Source: Bacteroidota bacterium (GTDB taxonomy: Bacteria; Bacteroidota; Bacteroidia; Chitinophagales; Chitinophagaceae). Taken from it: 64,000 nt of DNA. Of this stretch, positions 33,053 through 47,665 are shown piece after piece (position 1 is the first letter of the stretch; every line of letters starts with the position of its first letter). The stretch spans positions 48,419 through 112,418 of the forward strand of contig JAFDYG010000457.1 in NCBI GenBank assembly GCA_018267545.1, written 5' to 3'. Both the position numbers and the translations under genes were made by a program. Under the pieces are notes generated by a model that was not told where the DNA came from, did no database searches, and was given only the letters and a program-made list of their open reading frames with translations.

Positions 33053-34225
33053 CTACACCCGGATATAAACCTTTCGTTTATCGAGAATATAACCTACCAG
33101 CCAGTAAAGAAATACGAGCACGATGGCATAAAGCAGGGAAGCATTTTTGGGATCGCCCGTAATCGGTTTGCAGATATGCTGATAGAACCAGGGAAGCGGC
33201 GCCTGGTATTTCGGCAGACCATCCGTTCCCGGACCAACGGGAATCCTTATCAGGGCGATGAGACGGGGGAAGGCCCCGCTCAGCACGAAGATAAACAACG
33301 GGTTCTTACCGAAGACGTCGAAGAAACGGGTCCCCCACCCCTTCCACTGCCGGAATTCGATGAGATAGATGAGCAAGATGAGTAACAGGATGGCATAGCC
33401 GGTGGTAGCCAGGACAAAGGAACTGGTCCAGATTTTCTTGTTGATCGGGAAAGCAAGGTTCCATACGTAACCGACGACCAATAGCCCCACGGCAGCCAGA
33501 AACAAGTCCCGAAGCATGGACGGCGTCTTTCCTTTCTTTTGAATATACCAGCCCGTATAATAGCCGAAGATGACCTGTACGATAGCAGCCATGGTGCTGG
33601 GCACGCCCTCGGGGTCAAAGGCAACGCCCTCGCCGTGATAGAGGTGCTCGGCGCCGAAGAGCCATTTGTCGACCGCCGTTCCGAAATAGCCTTGAAGACT
33701 ATACGGGTCGCCCGGTGCGCCCAGCGTATAGCAAAGCCCCCACCAGCCAAGCAGCAATAGAATGCTGATGACCAGCGAGCCCCTGAAACCGCCAAGATAG
33801 ACAGCCAGCGCGCCAAAGAGATAGCAAAGCGCGATGCGGCCGAGCACGCTCATGACCCGCACGCCCACCACGACACCCTGGTCGTTGGTGAAGGTCCAGC
33901 CCCTGAGGACCAGGTGATCGTGGTCCCAGCGCAGAAAGGGAAACCAGTTCAGGATAAAGCCGATCAGGAAGATGAGCGCGGTGCGTTTGAAAATCTTTCC
34001 CCAGACCAGCGGCGCCTCCATCTGCTGCAGGCGGGGCATCACGAAAGAAAGCGCGTTCCCTACGGCAAAAAGGAAAAACGGAAACACCATATCCGTCGGC
34101 GTCAACCCATGCCAGGGGGCATGCTCCAGCGGATCATAAGAAGGTCCTGCCTGGTTGTTCACCAGGATCATGAATGCTACGGTGGCGCCCCGGAAGACGT
34201 CCAGGGAATAGTATCTTTCTTTCAC
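33053..34225 (-). CDS. DUF5009/HGSNAT-like membrane acyltransferase
   Basis: A 390-residue inner-membrane protein with about 10-11 hydrophobic segments and the family motifs SLDVFRGATVAFMILVNN at the start and HGLTPTDMVFPFFLFAVGNA (about residues 38-57). This family includes heparan-alpha-glucosaminide N-acetyltransferase, which moves an acetyl group across the membrane onto a terminal glucosamine, and bacterial NagX. It may acylate a sugar in the periplasm before its use. It begins immediately after the stop codon of the HxlR gene and is followed by the glycoside-hydrolase-like gene, so the three may be one transcript. Confidence 0.85.
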   Translation of the reverse strand: MKERYYSLDVFRGATVAFMILVNNQAGPSYDPLEHAPWHGLTPTDMVFPFFLFAVGNALSFVMPRLQQMEAPLVWGKIFKRTALIFLIGFILNWFPFLRWDHDHLVLRGWTFTNDQGVVVGVRVMSVLGRIALCYLFGALAVYLGGFRGSLVISILLLLGWWGLCYTLGAPGDPYSLQGYFGTAVDKWLFGAEHLYHGEGVAFDPEGVPSTMAAIVQVIFGYYTGWYIQKKGKTPSMLRDLFLAAVGLLVVGYVWNLAFPINKKIWTSSFVLATTGYAILLLILLIYLIEFRQWKGWGTRFFDVFGKNPLFIFVLSGAFPRLIALIRIPVGPGTDGLPKYQAPLPWFYQHICKPITGDPKNASLLYAIVLVFLYWLVGYILDKRKVYIRV

Positions 34226-41948: not shown

Positions 41949-42794
41949 ATGGACAACACAAAAGTATGGTACGTTACGGGCGCCTCGAAAGGTCTGGGGC
42001 TGGCCCTGGTCAAAAAGCTGCTGGCAGCCGGCTACAAGGTTGCCGCCACGTCGAGGAATAGCAAGGCATTGACGAGTGCGGTCGGTGAAATGACCGCCGA
42101 TTTTCTCCCGCTGCAGGTGGACCTGCTGAACGAACGCAGCGTAGAGGAAAGCATCCAAAAAACAGTCGGTCACTTCGGCGCCATCCACGTCGTAGTAAAC
42201 AACGCGGGCTATGGCCAGCTGGGTGCGCTGGAAGAACTGTCCGACAAAGAATCCCGTTTGAATTTCGACGTCAACGTCTTCGGACTGCTGAACGTCATCC
42301 GGAAAGTATTGCCGCAGCTACGTGAGCAAAAGACCGGTCATATCTTCAACATCGGTTCGATCGGGGGATACAACGGTAATTTCGCCGGATGGGGTATCTA
42401 CTGCGCTACTAAATTTGCCGTGGCGGGACTGACGGAAGGCCTGGCGGCCGAGCTGCAGCCGCTTGGCATCTTCGCCACTGTCGTCTACCCCGGTTACTTC
42501 CGGACCAATTTCCTGGAACAGGATTCACTCAATGTTCCTGCCCGTCCCATCGACGCCTATCAGGCTGCGCGTGACTCACAGCGAATGCACCAGCAGGAGA
42601 TCAATGGCCATCAGCCGGGTGACCCGGACAAGGCTGCGGATGTGCTGATTCGCGTCGCCGAATCCAGTCAGCCTCCCGTGCACCTGTTCTTAGGGCCCGA
42701 CGCCAATGCGCTCGCGGTGAGCAAAGATGTGGCTGTGGAAAAAGAGAGAAAAGCATGGGAAGCCGAGACAACGGCAACGAATATCCTAAACTAG
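41949..42794 (+). CDS. Classical short-chain dehydrogenase/reductase
   Basis: A 281-residue SDR with all classical motifs: TGASKGLG (about residues 10-17), NNAGYG (about 84-89), the catalytic Ser in IGSIGGY (about 137) and YCATK (about 150-154). It resembles oxidoreductases of the YjgI/retinol-type subgroup, about 280 residues, acting on an unknown carbonyl or alcohol. Its TAG stop overlaps the TAG stop of the convergent DUF692 gene. Confidence 0.93.
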   Translation: MDNTKVWYVTGASKGLGLALVKKLLAAGYKVAATSRNSKALTSAVGEMTADFLPLQVDLLNERSVEESIQKTVGHFGAIHVVVNNAGYGQLGALEELSDKESRLNFDVNVFGLLNVIRKVLPQLREQKTGHIFNIGSIGGYNGNFAGWGIYCATKFAVAGLTEGLAAELQPLGIFATVVYPGYFRTNFLEQDSLNVPARPIDAYQAARDSQRMHQQEINGHQPGDPDKAADVLIRVAESSQPPVHLFLGPDANALAVSKDVAVEKERKAWEAETTATNILN

Positions 42795-43939
42795 GAGCCC
42801 TGACGCGCCCATCCGCGGGCCCATTTTCGTGCAATATTGACCGCCGTCTCGAGCATATGAGGCTGCCAGCGTTCGACCCGCCATTCGCTATTTGCCAACG
42901 AAGAGCGGGACAGACGCTGCGCGGCCTCTGTATATGAGGCGGCTGTCTCGAGGATTTCGGAAAGCTCCAGCTGCTGCCGGTATAGCTGCTCGTCTTCGAC
43001 CGGCGGATGACTGATGTCATGAAGAGGCGGAAGAAAGGACATGTCGACCAGCTCGGGGATCCGATCGTCGTTGAAGCGGTGTACGACGGCTTCCATGCGG
43101 GAGAAGTCACTGCGGAAGCCAGCCCTGCTATCGTCCGTGCGAAGTGCGCTGCCCATTTGTTCCAGGACGACGTACTTCAAATGCGGACACCGGTCGATGG
43201 TATTCTCCAGGAGCTGGAAGACGTCGCCGGGTACGCTGTCGTCGTGCGTATCCCGCCGCACCCGCTTGCCCGGCGCAATATCGGAATCCTCCCAGCTGCC
43301 GCCGGAGATATGAATCTCGCGTACTTTGTCGAGCGGATAAAGGGAAATCAGCTCCTCGAAGTCCAGATCGAAGTTCTGAAGCTGACAGTAGAGGTTATGA
43401 AGGTCCAGGATGATAAATCCATTGACCGGCTCCAGCAGCCGGTCCAAAAATTCTCCGTGCTTCTTGACCTCCTCCAGGGAATAGGAAAAAGCCAGGTTCT
43501 CCAGGCCTACAGGGCAATGACAGGCTTCTTGTATACGCTGGAGCCGATCCCGGCCGATGGCCAGCGTCGAAGCCGTATAGGGAATATTCAATGGCGCGCC
43601 GCGGTGAAAGTCTTTGCCCGTCATAAAGCCAAAGTGCTCGGTGATATGGTCGAAACGGAACAGGGAGGAGGTCTCCTGCAGCTGCCGCAGCCAGGCTTCC
43701 TGCTGGGAATGCCAGCGGGCGGAAAACAACGAAAAAAAGACGCCATGACCAATCAGGCGTCCTTCTTTACTAAATGCCGACAATAATTCCAGGAACCAGT
43801 CCGGGACTTGCTTGATATTGAACAAGGCGTCAAAGGACCATTCAATTGATTCGACGCGGGACTCTTCTAACAGAGGCAGACAGGCCGCCAGGATATCGGC
43901 ATCGAGGTTGCAGGCTACTGCGGGTAACAATCTAGGCAC
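42791..43939 (-). CDS. DUF692/MNIO iron enzyme, RiPP-modifying candidate
   Basis: A 382-residue protein taken from GTG 43939 (MPRLLPAVACNL, V coded as start); the frame runs back to GTG 43978, overlapping the precursor gene. Residues 1-290 form the DUF692 TIM barrel of multinuclear non-haem iron oxidases. Likely metal and active-site residues are His65 (LIGHGVFF), Glu101-His102 (ITEHFGF), Glu147-Asn148 (GLENLAF), Asp179 and Asn182 (LDLHNLY), His210 (IHISGG), His232-Asp233 and Glu260. Known relatives (MbnB, TglH, ChrH) modify Cys residues of ribosomal peptides. Residues about 295-382 are an extra helical domain that may replace the separate partner protein these enzymes usually need. It lies directly downstream of a small gene ending in a CPAC motif. 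Confidence 0.85.
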   Translation of the reverse strand: MPRLLPAVACNLDADILAACLPLLEESRVESIEWSFDALFNIKQVPDWFLELLSAFSKEGRLIGHGVFFSLFSARWHSQQEAWLRQLQETSSLFRFDHITEHFGFMTGKDFHRGAPLNIPYTASTLAIGRDRLQRIQEACHCPVGLENLAFSYSLEEVKKHGEFLDRLLEPVNGFIILDLHNLYCQLQNFDLDFEELISLYPLDKVREIHISGGSWEDSDIAPGKRVRRDTHDDSVPGDVFQLLENTIDRCPHLKYVVLEQMGSALRTDDSRAGFRSDFSRMEAVVHRFNDDRIPELVDMSFLPPLHDISHPPVEDEQLYRQQLELSEILETAASYTEAAQRLSRSSLANSEWRVERWQPHMLETAVNIARKWARGWARQGS

Positions 43940-43962
43940 GATAGAGCAATTAAAAAGAGATA

Positions 43963-44148
43963 CTAACCCATGCCGCACGCAGGGCAGCTATCCGGATAAG
44001 TTGTTTGAGGTGTGGTCTGTTCGGTCTTTTTCTTTTCGGCTTCGGCCTTTTTCTGCTCGGCCGTCAGGTGCTCCTTGTGACAGGAAGAAACTGCCTGGAC
44101 GGTCATGCCTAAGACGATGGCGCTCAGCAAGGTTTTCGATAGTTTCAT
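43963..44148 (-). CDS. Candidate MNIO-class RiPP precursor (lipoprotein-like, CPAC end)
   Basis: A 61-residue protein from the ATG at 44148. Residues 1-22 form a signal sequence with a lipobox-like AVSSC (Cys23). A Lys/Glu/Ala-rich spacer (about 24-45) and a Thr/Pro/Gln stretch follow. The peptide ends SCPACGMG with Cys55 and Cys58. The gene is 23 bases upstream of the DUF692 enzyme gene (from its GTG start at 43939). Two Cys close to the end of a short secreted peptide beside a DUF692 enzyme is the layout of chryseobasin- and bufferin-type systems. It resembles the ChrA precursor as I remember it, which I cannot check. The modification and role are unproven. Confidence 0.75.
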   Translation of the reverse strand: MKLSKTLLSAIVLGMTVQAVSSCHKEHLTAEQKKAEAEKKKTEQTTPQTTYPDSCPACGMG

Positions 44149-44661: not shown

Positions 44662-45204
44662 GTGCCGGAACTATCTGACGAAAAAATAATGCTGCTGGTA
44701 AAAGAAGGTCATCTCTCGGAGCTAACCGAGCTGTTCGACCGTTATCACGTGCCGCTGTATAATTTTTTCCTTCGGCTCACGATGGACCGCGCCACGAGCG
44801 AGGATTTGACCCAAAGCTTGTTTTACCGCATAATCCGGTACCGGCAGAGCTACCAGCCGGGGCAGGGAACGTTCCGCTCATGGGTGTATCGTATGGCTCG
44901 CAACATCCACGCCGATTTCTGCAAGCAGCAGAAGCAGGCGCCGCAGCGGCCCATCGACCCCGATGAAGCGGACCTAAGCCTGGCGGATCATTCCGCGGGA
45001 TATGCGGAGGCCGACTACCAGCGGCTGGATGAAGCCCTGGCCCTGCTGCCTTCCGAACAGCGGGAGATCCTGGTCCTGAGCCGCTACCAGGGATTGAAAT
45101 ACGAAGAGATCTCGAAAATCAAGGATATATCGGTTTCGGCGATCAAGGTCCAGGTCTACCGGGCCATCCGACAGCTGAGAAGCCTTTATTTTAAACAATC
45201 ATAG
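44662..45204 (+). CDS. ECF RNA polymerase sigma factor
   Basis: A 180-residue sigma-70 factor starting at GTG 44662. Region 2 is at about 18-85 (LFDRYHVPLYNFFLRLT, SEDLTQSLFYRIIRYR, FRSWVYRMARNIHADF). Region 4 is at about 120-175 (LLPSEQREILVLSRYQGLKY, then EEISKIKDISVSAIKVQVYR). It lacks any extra C-terminal domain, so it relies on a separate anti-sigma factor, the next gene. The stop TAG (45202-45204) overlaps a GTG (45204), showing translational coupling. Likely targets are its own operon, including the two secreted DUF4097-like proteins downstream. Confidence 0.95.
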   Translation: MPELSDEKIMLLVKEGHLSELTELFDRYHVPLYNFFLRLTMDRATSEDLTQSLFYRIIRYRQSYQPGQGTFRSWVYRMARNIHADFCKQQKQAPQRPIDPDEADLSLADHSAGYAEADYQRLDEALALLPSEQREILVLSRYQGLKYEEISKIKDISVSAIKVQVYRAIRQLRSLYFKQS

Positions 45205-45212
45205 TGAAGCGT

Positions 45213-46106
45213 ATGCATTGCAAAGAAGTACAAGCCGTTTTGATTGAATACCTCGACCAGTCGCTGGATGCAGGCGTAGCCGCTGTGGTAGCCAGGCATC
45301 TGGAAGACTGTACCGCCTGCCAGCGGGAAGCAGCCGAGATGCGGGAGCTGCTGGTGGCGATGAAGAATACCCCTCTCGAAATGCCTACGAATGCCCTGCG
45401 GGAGAATTTCAATACGCTCTTGCAATCGGAGCTGAATATGGTCACCATGACCAATCTACTCGAAGACGAAGACCCCGAAAATGCGCAATCGAAGAGCCGC
45501 CAGCGCGGGGGTCAGGATTCCCAGGAACAGGGCAAGCTGCGGAGCCTGTCCGCCGGCGGCCTCGGAAGCATCTCCGCCGGAAACCTCGGGGGCATCCTTT
45601 GGAAAGCTGCAGCAGCCGTCATCCTGCTCGTCGGAGGGGCCTGGCTCGGCGCGGCCTACCAGGCCAATAAGGACAAGGGCCCCAATGAGATCGTCAACTT
45701 ACAAAAGGAAGTCAAGGAGATGAAGCAGGTCCTGCTCTTTTCTCTCATCGACGACGAATCGGCCAGCCAGCGGATCAAGGCCGTGAGCTATGCCGAAGAG
45801 ATGACCAATCCTGACCAGGCTGTCATCGACGCCCTGATGAATACGCTCAACAACGACAAGAACGCCAACGTACGGCTGGCATCCTTATATTCCCTGGCCA
45901 GGTGGGCCGACAACAGGACGGTGCGTGACTCGCTGGTCGTATCACTGGGCAGGCAGACCGAACCGATCGTACAGATCGTGCTGATCAATCTGCTGGCGGA
46001 GAAGCGTGAACGCCGGGCCATCGACCCAATGAAGGCCATCCTTTCAAACGGCAAAGCGCTGAAAGAAGTAAAGGAAGCCGCACAAAGAGGTCTCAAAGTA
46101 CTGTAA
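45213..46106 (+). CDS. Anti-sigma factor with zinc-finger start and HEAT repeats
   Basis: A 297-residue membrane protein from ATG 45213 (a GTG at 45204 would add three residues). The cytoplasmic N-terminus has the zf-HC2 anti-sigma pattern MHCKEVQAVLIEYLDQSLD with HLEDCTACQREAAEM (His and two Cys). A Gly/Ser-rich linker leads to one membrane helix (about 132-150, AAAAVILLVGGAWLGAAYQA). The outside part ends in HEAT-like helical repeats (about 185-297, with VIDALMNTLNNDKNANVRLA). It probably holds the upstream sigma factor at the membrane; the HEAT part would sense or bind a signal in the periplasm. Confidence 0.9.
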   Translation: MHCKEVQAVLIEYLDQSLDAGVAAVVARHLEDCTACQREAAEMRELLVAMKNTPLEMPTNALRENFNTLLQSELNMVTMTNLLEDEDPENAQSKSRQRGGQDSQEQGKLRSLSAGGLGSISAGNLGGILWKAAAAVILLVGGAWLGAAYQANKDKGPNEIVNLQKEVKEMKQVLLFSLIDDESASQRIKAVSYAEEMTNPDQAVIDALMNTLNNDKNANVRLASLYSLARWADNRTVRDSLVVSLGRQTEPIVQIVLINLLAEKRERRAIDPMKAILSNGKALKEVKEAAQRGLKVL

Positions 46107-46189
46107 CAAACACAAATTTATAAACAGATGTTTCCAGCAGGTAGAACCGGTCTACCAGCCCGACATCCCCTTGCTTAAACTTTAAAAAC

Positions 46190-46969
46190 ATGAACAAAAT
46201 GAAGTATATCTTTTCTCTGCTCGCATTACTGGCTATCGTGAATTGGGCCTCCGCGCAGGAATTCAAGGTGGCGGCCTCCAACACGAAGGAAGCCAAGCTG
46301 ACCCTCCAGGACTTCAATGGCGACCTGCCCATCGAAGGCTATAACGGCAATGAGATCATCGTCACGTCTACCCACGGCAAATTCGAAGCTCCCGAAAGGG
46401 CCAAGGGTCTCAAGCCTCTCTACGGCGGCGGCACCGACAATACGGGTATCGGTCTTTTCATGGAAAAAAATGGAAATGCGGTCACCCTTCGCTGCCTCGT
46501 TCCCTTCACTCAATCGTCGGGCTACAAGATCAAGGTTCCCGAGAACATGGCGCTGATGATAGCAAGAGATTGTCCGCGCGGAGGCGAAACCACCGTTCAG
46601 AACATGAAAAACGAGATCGAATTCAACGGCTGTCATGAAATCAACCTGAAGAACGTATCCGGCCCCCTCGTCATCTCGACAATCAGCGGCGGTGTCGGCG
46701 TCGTCTTCAGCGAGATCAATAAAGATAAGCCCACCTCGATCTCGGCCGTCAGCGGTGAGGTAGACGTCACGTTGCCCGCCAAGGCTGCGGTCGACCTCGA
46801 AATGAGCACGGTATCCGGGAATATGTATTCCGACTTCGACATCCCGAGCCCTGCCAGCAAGGACATGCGGCGCGTTGGTGGAAGCGGTATCAAGACCCAG
46901 CTCAACGGCGGAGGCACGACTCTCAAGCTGCGTAATATCAGCGGGAACATCTACCTGCGGAAAGGATAA
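46190..46969 (+). CDS. Secreted DUF4097-like beta protein (first of pair)
   Basis: A 259-residue protein with a signal peptide (about 1-22, ending SAQ) and a mature beta-helix-like domain of the DUF4097/putative adhesin type. Typical rung phrases are FNGDLPIEGYNGNEIIVTST, ISTISGGVGVVF, SAVSGEVDVTLP, STVSGNMYSDF and LRNISGNIYLRK. Its surface location and function are unknown; these proteins are often regulated by ECF factors. It is the third gene of the sigma/anti-sigma operon, followed by a paralogue. Confidence 0.85.
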   Translation: MNKMKYIFSLLALLAIVNWASAQEFKVAASNTKEAKLTLQDFNGDLPIEGYNGNEIIVTSTHGKFEAPERAKGLKPLYGGGTDNTGIGLFMEKNGNAVTLRCLVPFTQSSGYKIKVPENMALMIARDCPRGGETTVQNMKNEIEFNGCHEINLKNVSGPLVISTISGGVGVVFSEINKDKPTSISAVSGEVDVTLPAKAAVDLEMSTVSGNMYSDFDIPSPASKDMRRVGGSGIKTQLNGGGTTLKLRNISGNIYLRKG

Positions 46970-46999
46970 AAAATAGCCCAACTATAAAAACTCTCCATC

Positions 47000-47665
47000 A
47001 TGAAAAATAGATTACTTCTCATACTGCTGCTCGGCATCGGCCTGCTGCCAGCCAGCGCCCAGAAGACCGTCGAGAAACACTTCGAGTTCTCCCCCAGCGG
47101 TCTCGTACACATGAACTTCCAGATCTCCGACTCCATCCGTATCCTGACCTGGAAGAAAAACGAGGTGTACATAAAAAGCAGCATCAATGTAAACGACAAC
47201 CAGAACAACGACGACTATAAGATGGTCTTCGATCAGTCCGGCAACACCATCAACGTTTCGGCCAAGCTGGATTTCAAGTGCAAGGACAGCACCCACAAGA
47301 AAAATTGCAATTGCTGCTGCTGCACCGAAAGCGAGATATTCCACACGGTCTATATACCCGAAAATGCAGACTTCTCCGTAGAAACGATCAACGGCAATAT
47401 CGTGATCACCGGCAACACGGCCGAGATCAGGGCTAAGAGCATCAGCGGTTTTATCGACCTGGCCATCGAGCCGCAGCGTAAGGCCGACGTCAAGCTGCGG
47501 ACGATCACCGGCACCATGTATTCGAATATCGAGCTGAGCTCTACGTCCCGGCGGATCAAGCAGGTCGGCGGTGGTTCGGTCAGCGCGGAACTAAATGGAG
47601 GCGGTGGAAAAGTAATAGACCTGCAGACGATCAGCGGAAACATCTTCTTTCGCAAAGAGGGGTAA
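47000..47665 (+). CDS. Secreted DUF4097-like beta protein with a Cys-rich insert
   Basis: A 221-residue paralogue of the preceding protein, with a signal peptide (about 1-20) and the same rungs (VETINGNIVITG, KSISGFIDLAI, RTITGTMYSNIE, QTISGNIFFRKEG). It differs by a compact Cys cluster near residues 94-108 (CKDSTHKKNCNCCCCTES): six Cys and one His within 17 residues, which could bind a metal or form a disulfide knot. It ends the operon; a bidirectional terminator follows. Confidence 0.85.
   Translation: MKNRLLLILLLGIGLLPASAQKTVEKHFEFSPSGLVHMNFQISDSIRILTWKKNEVYIKSSINVNDNQNNDDYKMVFDQSGNTINVSAKLDFKCKDSTHKKNCNCCCCTESEIFHTVYIPENADFSVETINGNIVITGNTAEIRAKSISGFIDLAIEPQRKADVKLRTITGTMYSNIELSSTSRRIKQVGGGSVSAELNGGGGKVIDLQTISGNIFFRKEG

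Follow-up and report, generated by a model that had tools for sequence, protein, structure and literature searches.

A stretch of 64,000 nucleotides from a draft assembly of a Chitinophagaceae bacterium (Bacteroidota; GenBank assembly GCA_018267545.1, contig JAFDYG010000457.1; hereafter the window, meaning the whole stretch at its full length) carries two adjacent genes encoding a small cysteine-containing peptide and an enzyme of the MNIO (DUF692) type. With high confidence, these are read as a minimal two-gene unit for a ribosomally synthesized and post-translationally modified peptide (RiPP), of the type represented by the Dyb, Chs and Hym systems and named "DAG-RiPP" in a 2025 bioRxiv preprint (Chen et al., PMC12636315), with the chemistry, lipidation and anchoring proposed below. 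Pairing of the genes, C-terminal motif, family membership, predicted fold and conservation were all observed for the window pair itself. By analogy with the published relatives, the enzyme very probably converts the last seven residues of the peptide into a ring, and the peptide is probably membrane-anchored.

The precursor peptide and its enzyme

The peptide of 61 residues (MKLSKTLLSAIVLGMTVQAVSSCHKEHLTAEQKKAEAEKKKTEQTTPQTTYPDSCPACGMG) has MKLSKTLLSAIVLGMTVQAVSSCHKEH as its N-terminal part and YPDSCPACGMG as its C-terminal part. Its cysteines are Cys23, which lies in a lipobox (VSS-C23) recognized with a pattern test, Cys55 and Cys58, and CPACGMG directly precedes the stop codon, which corresponds to the extreme C-terminal CPxCGxG of DybA-type precursors. 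An earlier note, made from the letters of the window, had given the lengths of both products (61 and 382 residues), their coordinates, Cys23, the pair Cys55/Cys58 and the end SCPACGMG, and all of these were correct. Positions +2 to +5 past Cys23 read H-K-E-H, with a lysine (Lys25) at +3. The curated family NF050125 ("chryseobasin-related MNIO class RiPP peptide") matched over the whole peptide with 73.3 bits against a cut-off of 40, and may well be the family that covers the DybA/ChsA type. By contrast, the ChrA model NF050124 gave 12.9 bits, short of its cut-off of 50, scans with Pfam and NCBIfam yielded no match to the bufferin families (DUF2282, Buf2), and the EGKCG motif is absent from the sequence. 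For the LysC fragment TEQTTPQTTYPDSCPACGMG, the computed [M+H]+ is 2087.84 in the unmodified and 2083.80 in the modified form (−4.03 Da).

Peptides from 24 of the 27 loci described below were aligned, each being the one nearest to the enzyme; L067, L071 and L066, the last identical to L062, were omitted. Met1, Ser22, Cys55, Cys58, Gly59 and Gly61 were invariant, and Lys2, Lys5, Ala10, Cys23 and Pro56 nearly so, Cys23 being offset in one row and Pro56 replaced by Leu in one row, and the linker was variable. The precursor at L056:9100-9282 ends in CLACGMG, with Leu in place of Pro in the nearly invariant CP pair.

The enzyme matched PF05114, the MNIO superfamily, with 106.2 bits (cut-off 25). 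Its top NCBIfam model was MNIO_ChrH (NF050165) with 398.4 bits; BufB and HvfB, whose thresholds are 310 and 360 bits, gave 87 and 71 bits, ApyH 33 and MbnB 23. Twelve residues (His65, Glu101, His102, Glu147, Asn148, Asp179, His181, Asn182, His210, Asp230, His232 and Glu260) were invariant in all 29 aligned proteins, which include two above the ChrH cut-off, in agreement with the earlier description of a DUF692 enzyme retaining the expected His/Glu/Asp/Asn set. The twelve are defined by sequence invariance, and those between residues 119 and 272 fall inside the stretch aligned to TglH (8hci). An AlphaFold2 model built from four sequences (predicted local distance difference test, pLDDT, 77; predicted template modelling score, pTM, 0.82; loops 104–115 and 297–312 unreliable) consisted of a triose-phosphate isomerase (TIM) barrel followed by a C-terminal helical bundle. 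The bundle helices are predicted at residues 317–332, 336–344, 347–350 and 360–375, as expected of the ChrH-like subfamily. Best matches of the model in the PDB were TglH (8hi7) and MbnB (7fc0, 7tcr and 7dz9), followed by other TIM barrels. The reading frame starts with GTG; an alternative in-frame GTG farther 5′ would extend the protein to 395 residues.

Conservation of the pair and its published relatives

The ChrH model at E ≤ 0.001 found matches in 41 of 294 genomes drawn from the family of the host, the window's genome included, and 20 places in the same draw, again including that of the window, gave E below 1e-100. In a phylum-wide draw, matches at E ≤ 1e-30 were found in 6 of 395 genomes, that of the window counted, two of them above the ChrH cut-off. 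The peptide model at E ≤ 0.001 matched in 13 of 395 genomes of the class, 4 above its cut-off (the window's genome counted), and the 9 below it are probably chance matches. Given these low tallies, the distribution of the pair is patchy. The named assemblies with relatives of the enzyme comprised one Ferruginibacter and two Saprospiraceae, and a search of a plasmid collection returned one Hymenobacter record, with 31% of the query at 68.5%.

Twenty-seven loci with an intact enzyme were compared (L055–L074, L077–L079, L009–L011 and the window). L078 was retrieved with the peptide model, L079 with both models and the remaining loci through the enzyme, and the window and L078 do not count as independent tests. 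Excluded were G600, in which the enzyme is decayed, G119, with a partial gene carrying a stop near a contig edge, and L112 and L113, whose enzymes exceed the ChrH cut-off. In all 27 loci, an open reading frame (ORF) ending in C..CG.G lies just upstream of the enzyme on the same strand, and away from these upstream stretches the 547,793 bases of the loci contain no ORF with such an end. Since adjacency was universal and the motif occurred nowhere else, the pairing is not due to chance. The earlier note would have taken its reading as refuted if relatives did not keep the small gene next to the enzyme; they keep it in 27 of 27 loci, and together with the PF05114 and NF050125 matches this supports the proposal of an MNIO-type RiPP pair.

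The motif nearest to the enzyme was CPACGMG in 18 loci, CPGCGMG in five, and CLACGMG, CPACGQG, CPGCGLG and CPACGLG in one locus each. As the 18 copies of CPACGMG are written in 17 different DNA spellings, conservation operates at the protein rather than the DNA level. The two loci above the ChrH cut-off, L112 and L113, likewise have a CPACGMG ORF just upstream, devoid of a lipobox Cys. In G600 (L080:9350-9950), the ChrH-like gene is decayed, no CPxCGxG match adjoins it, and the genes on either side are retained as they are in relatives; this joint absence counts in favour of reading the two genes as a pair.

Phylogenetic relationships were analyzed with a tree that leaves out L003_otherMNIO, a misframed sequence, and the very distant L002_otherMNIO. 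The window and the 26 other loci were split with 100/100 support from the two proteins above the ChrH cut-off (707 and 686 bits), and the exact position of the window among the 27 loci is not settled by this tree. Identity of the window enzyme was highest with L058 (66%) and amounted to 42% with both proteins above the ChrH cut-off, a value comparable with the 40% reported between DybH and ChrH (PMC12636315).

The closest described systems are DybA/DybH of Dyadobacter crusticola, ChsA/ChsH of Chitinophaga sancti and HymA/HymH of Hymenobacter gelipurpurascens. In the preprint that describes them (PMC12636315), Bacteroidota precursors outside Chryseobacterium are reported to carry a third Cys at the lipobox and a CPxCGxG end. 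Their enzymes are ChrH-like, need no partner protein and have at the C-terminus the helical bundle that distinguishes the ChrH subfamily; a minimal cluster contains nothing beyond the precursor and enzyme genes. Each of DybH, ChsH and HymH removes four hydrogens (−4 Da) from the motif, whose seven residues are enough for recognition by the enzyme; in modified DybA, nuclear magnetic resonance revealed a macrocycle together with a hydantoin, and in Escherichia coli DybA is triacylated by the lipoprotein pathway (PMC12636315). These precedents support two further suggestions of the earlier note. Cys55 and Cys58 are probably what the enzyme modifies, and the precursor, with its lipobox Cys23, is of lipoprotein type.

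According to the same account, the window pair has in common with Dyb, Chs and Hym the lipoprotein signal, the lipobox Cys, the C-terminal CPACGMG or a close variant, the ChrH-like enzyme with a helical bundle, the lack of a partner and the two-gene minimal cluster. The likeness was established with the published description rather than by direct comparison of sequences, and a difference was found in the surroundings. Among 17 window proteins between positions 33,053 and 53,626, a selection of the ORFs that was scanned against Pfam, there was no SusC/SusD, no transporter and no partner domain of the MbnC/TglI type.

Other MNIO systems stand further apart. Chryseobasin (ChrA/ChrH/ChrI of Chryseobacterium, PMC10214503) shares the CPACGMG end and a ChrH-like enzyme with the window, whereas the window pair falls below the ChrA and ChrH cut-offs, on a separate branch of the tree and at 42% identity; in addition, ChrA is described as having no lipobox Cys and an S-methylated product (PMC12636315). 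Bufferins (BufA/BufBC) and oxazolins (HvfA, NedA) are also MNIO-modified Cys peptides, some of them lipoproteins (PMC12452194, PMC12636315), but they belong to other precursor families with other motifs and use partner proteins. MbnB and TglH resemble the window enzyme in fold and conserved residues and differ from it in the reported lack of the C-terminal helical bundle (PMC12636315), in their partners MbnC and TglI (PMC10214503) and in their chemistry. The combination that the earlier note put forward for testing, a close Cys pair with a lipoprotein leader and no transporter gene, is already in print (PMC12636315), and as a discovery of a kind the locus adds little to that account. Among the papers listed in the literature searches, no other dealt with the lipidated type. 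What retains interest is the role of this ring system, whose two-gene unit recurs in the Bacteroidota, though patchily, and the relatives with several precursors described below.

Drawing on these relatives, the following course is proposed for the window pair. In the cytoplasm, the ChrH-like MNIO would need no partner protein to recognise CPACGMG at the C-terminus of the precursor, and its multi-iron centre, with O2, would perform a four-electron oxidation with loss of four hydrogens (−4.03 Da). The sulfur of Cys55 would become bonded to the former beta-carbon of Cys58, the sulfur of Cys58 would remain as a free thiol at the alpha-carbon, and a hydantoin would be closed with the residues after Cys58. 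Through the Sec/Lgt/LspA/Lnt pathway, Cys23 would then be acylated and residues 1–22 removed, and the 39-residue product would become anchored in the envelope, the outer membrane being the most likely site and its outer face a possible one. If the general lipoprotein route handled export in this way, the absence of a transporter gene, pointed out in the earlier note and borne out by the scan of 17 window proteins, would be expected.

Alternative explanations and possible display at the surface

Several points weigh against the assignment to the Dyb/Chs/Hym type. Chemistry and lipidation of the window pair are carried over from published relatives, and the grouping with DybH, ChsH and HymH would follow from shared sequence features, the tree having held none of their sequences. 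The enzyme lies below the ChrH equivalog cut-off (398.4 versus 600 bits). Display at the outer face, possible as it is, depends on the lysine at +3, scored with crude patterns in rows that are related. Finally, Lgt was not found with PF01790 or TIGR00544 in the source assembly, a draft of 7.3 Mb in 553 contigs that is 94.7% complete and that contains two LspA-like genes (C149 and C450) and an Lnt-like gene. Lgt-like matches were obtained in 7 of the 8 genomes of one search (six weak, two pieces of one ORF of 430–510 residues), and both Lgt searches gave matches in no more than 9 of the 14 control genomes, Bacillus subtilis being one of those missed; on these grounds the missing Lgt is ascribed to incompleteness of the draft or to a failure of the searches to detect it.

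That a chance peptide happens to adjoin an unrelated DUF692 gene is hardly conceivable. Short ORFs are indeed common, but the match to the curated family NF050125 and the conservation of the locus (27 of 27, with 17 DNA spellings over 18 CPACGMG copies and none elsewhere in 547,793 bases) refute such a pairing. A product like that of ChrH, in which the same ring system is S-methylated with an overall change of +10 Da, is quite unlikely. It would accord with the shared motif and subfamily, and according to PMC12636315 ChrH gives the S-methylated +10 Da product and ArlAH a mixture; yet the Bacteroidota pairs outside Chryseobacterium tested there, Dyb, Chs and Hym, give −4 Da, and the 100/100 branch divides the window enzyme from the two proteins above the ChrH cut-off.

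The remaining alternatives concern what the ring does. A membrane-held metal (copper) chelator, comparable to lipidated oxazolins or bufferins, is unlikely, even though other MNIO lipopeptides bind copper or are proposed to do so (NedA, PMC12636315; bufferins, PMC12452194). The peptide has neither the EGKCG repeat nor a bufferin match, and the scanned neighbours include no recognisable metal-handling gene. Moreover, the DybH product is reported to show no ultraviolet-visible feature of the methanobactin or bufferin kind, its function being called unclear by the authors (PMC12636315). The metal- or oxidant-related chelator put forward in the earlier note consequently found no support in these data. 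A tentative but more serious possibility, compatible with the DAG-RiPP assignment, is that the ring acts on the envelope or on neighbouring cells, through a lipid II-like target, as a signal or as the ligand of a SusCD-type importer. The authors of PMC12636315 remark that the ring resembles the lantibiotic B ring and that SusC/SusD genes often lie nearby, and the lipoprotein-type product with its surface-type Lys at +3 (the signal described in PMC5080379) points the same way; against it stand the scanned window proteins, among which SusC/SusD were not found, and the 30 loci clustered by protein similarity, in which no cluster beyond enzyme and peptide occurs in more than six.

Within the DAG-RiPP assignment, the position of the anchored ring can be approached through the residues that follow the lipobox. 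The surface export signal that Lauber et al. (PMC5080379) report for Capnocytophaga canimorsus is C-X-K-(D/E)2-X. Of 24 peptides that passed the lipobox pattern, 18 have lysine at +3, compared with 10 among 25 other predicted lipoproteins (Fisher p = 0.02); when an acidic residue at +4/+5 is required as well, the counts are 13 of 24 versus 8 of 25 (p = 0.15). This first lipobox count comprised 24 of 36 precursors, the others having failed the pattern or the gene call, and a recount covered all 36. In 22 of the 27 loci the precursor nearest to the enzyme then had lysine at +3, in 16 with an acidic residue too, and counting from the second Cys of L063 and L009 raises the 22 to 24; among further precursors having a lipobox Cys, lysine at +3 occurred in one of six. 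Compared with the 25 other lipoproteins the nearest precursors gave p = 0.004, and compared with the further precursors p = 0.005, the rows in all these statistics being related, kinship uncorrected and the patterns crude.

The 36 precursors correspond to the motif copies found within 1.5 kb upstream of the enzymes in the 27 loci together. Two or three precursors precede a single MNIO in six loci (L064, L065, L070, L071, L072 and L073), and the nine further copies in these comprise four CPACGMG, three CITCGRG and two CPPCGRG. Three of the five CITCGRG/CPPCGRG precursors (in L065, L070 and L071) have no lipobox Cys and by eye appear to be ordinary secreted peptides. From these observations, it could be envisaged that the outer membrane carries the modified ring on its outer face and that in some relatives one enzyme serves several differently sorted precursors, although this must be considered rather doubtful. 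If true, a ring anchored at the surface, anchored rings sorted in other ways and variant rings secreted freely would be made together, and such a set would be a receptor-ligand or graded signalling set, not a chelator. Relative to the published accounts as available, the operons with extra, partly non-lipidated precursors and the surface-export-like lysine of the main precursor are possibly new. The window locus itself is near the simplest case, with one precursor, one enzyme and a CPxCGxG-stop pattern that occurs once in the whole source assembly.

Gene arrangement and neighbourhood

The peptide gene comes first and is followed after 23 bases by the enzyme gene.

Features of the peptide–enzyme locus, in positions of the window
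Feature	Position	Strand	Description	Basis
DybA/ChsA-like precursor peptide	43963..44148	minus	61 aa; lipoprotein signal, then a variable linker and the terminal CPACGMG	NF050125, sequence, alignment
Signal peptide and lipobox to Cys23	44080..44148	minus	VSS-C	sequence, lipobox pattern match
Core CPACGMG	43966..43986	minus	residues 55–61; expected site of MNIO modification	sequence; published precedent (PMC12636315)
ChrH-like MNIO (DUF692) maturase	42791..43939	minus	382 aa	profiles, AlphaFold2 model, PDB matches, tree
Maturase architecture	42791..43939	minus	predicted TIM barrel and C-terminal helical bundle, residues ~317–375	AlphaFold2 model

Clustering of the proteins of the 30 loci by similarity placed the enzyme in 28 loci and the next cluster, taken to be the peptide, in 22; a third conserved gene did not emerge, as no other cluster exceeded six of 30 loci. 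One cluster present in six loci, an ABC exporter by eye, lies at least three genes away in varying orientation and is probably a chance neighbour.

Two loci from the same genus, L075:8915-10634 and L076:4228-5337, contain another kind of MNIO, which scores 56 and 52 bits with the ChrH model and lies downstream of what by eye are a LytTR response regulator and a tetratricopeptide-repeat histidine kinase. Just upstream of the MNIO in L075 is an 81-residue ORF with GCLGCHSG that belongs to no NCBIfam family, a copy of which was not found in L076.

The scanned neighbours in the window are ordinary, namely a metallo-beta-lactamase (MBL)-fold protein, a glucose/sorbosone dehydrogenase, a short-chain dehydrogenase, an extracytoplasmic function (ECF) sigma factor, a zf-HC2 protein, DUF4097 and DUF3857/transglutaminase proteins. 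The ECF sigma factor, a zf-HC2/HEAT protein, DUF4097 and a further small protein form an apparent operon at 44689-47665, divergent from the RiPP pair. In the congeners L074 and L077, the sigma factor does not adjoin the pair and an MBL-fold gene lies directly upstream; in L074, a zf-HC2/DUF4097 block is located seven to nine genes upstream.

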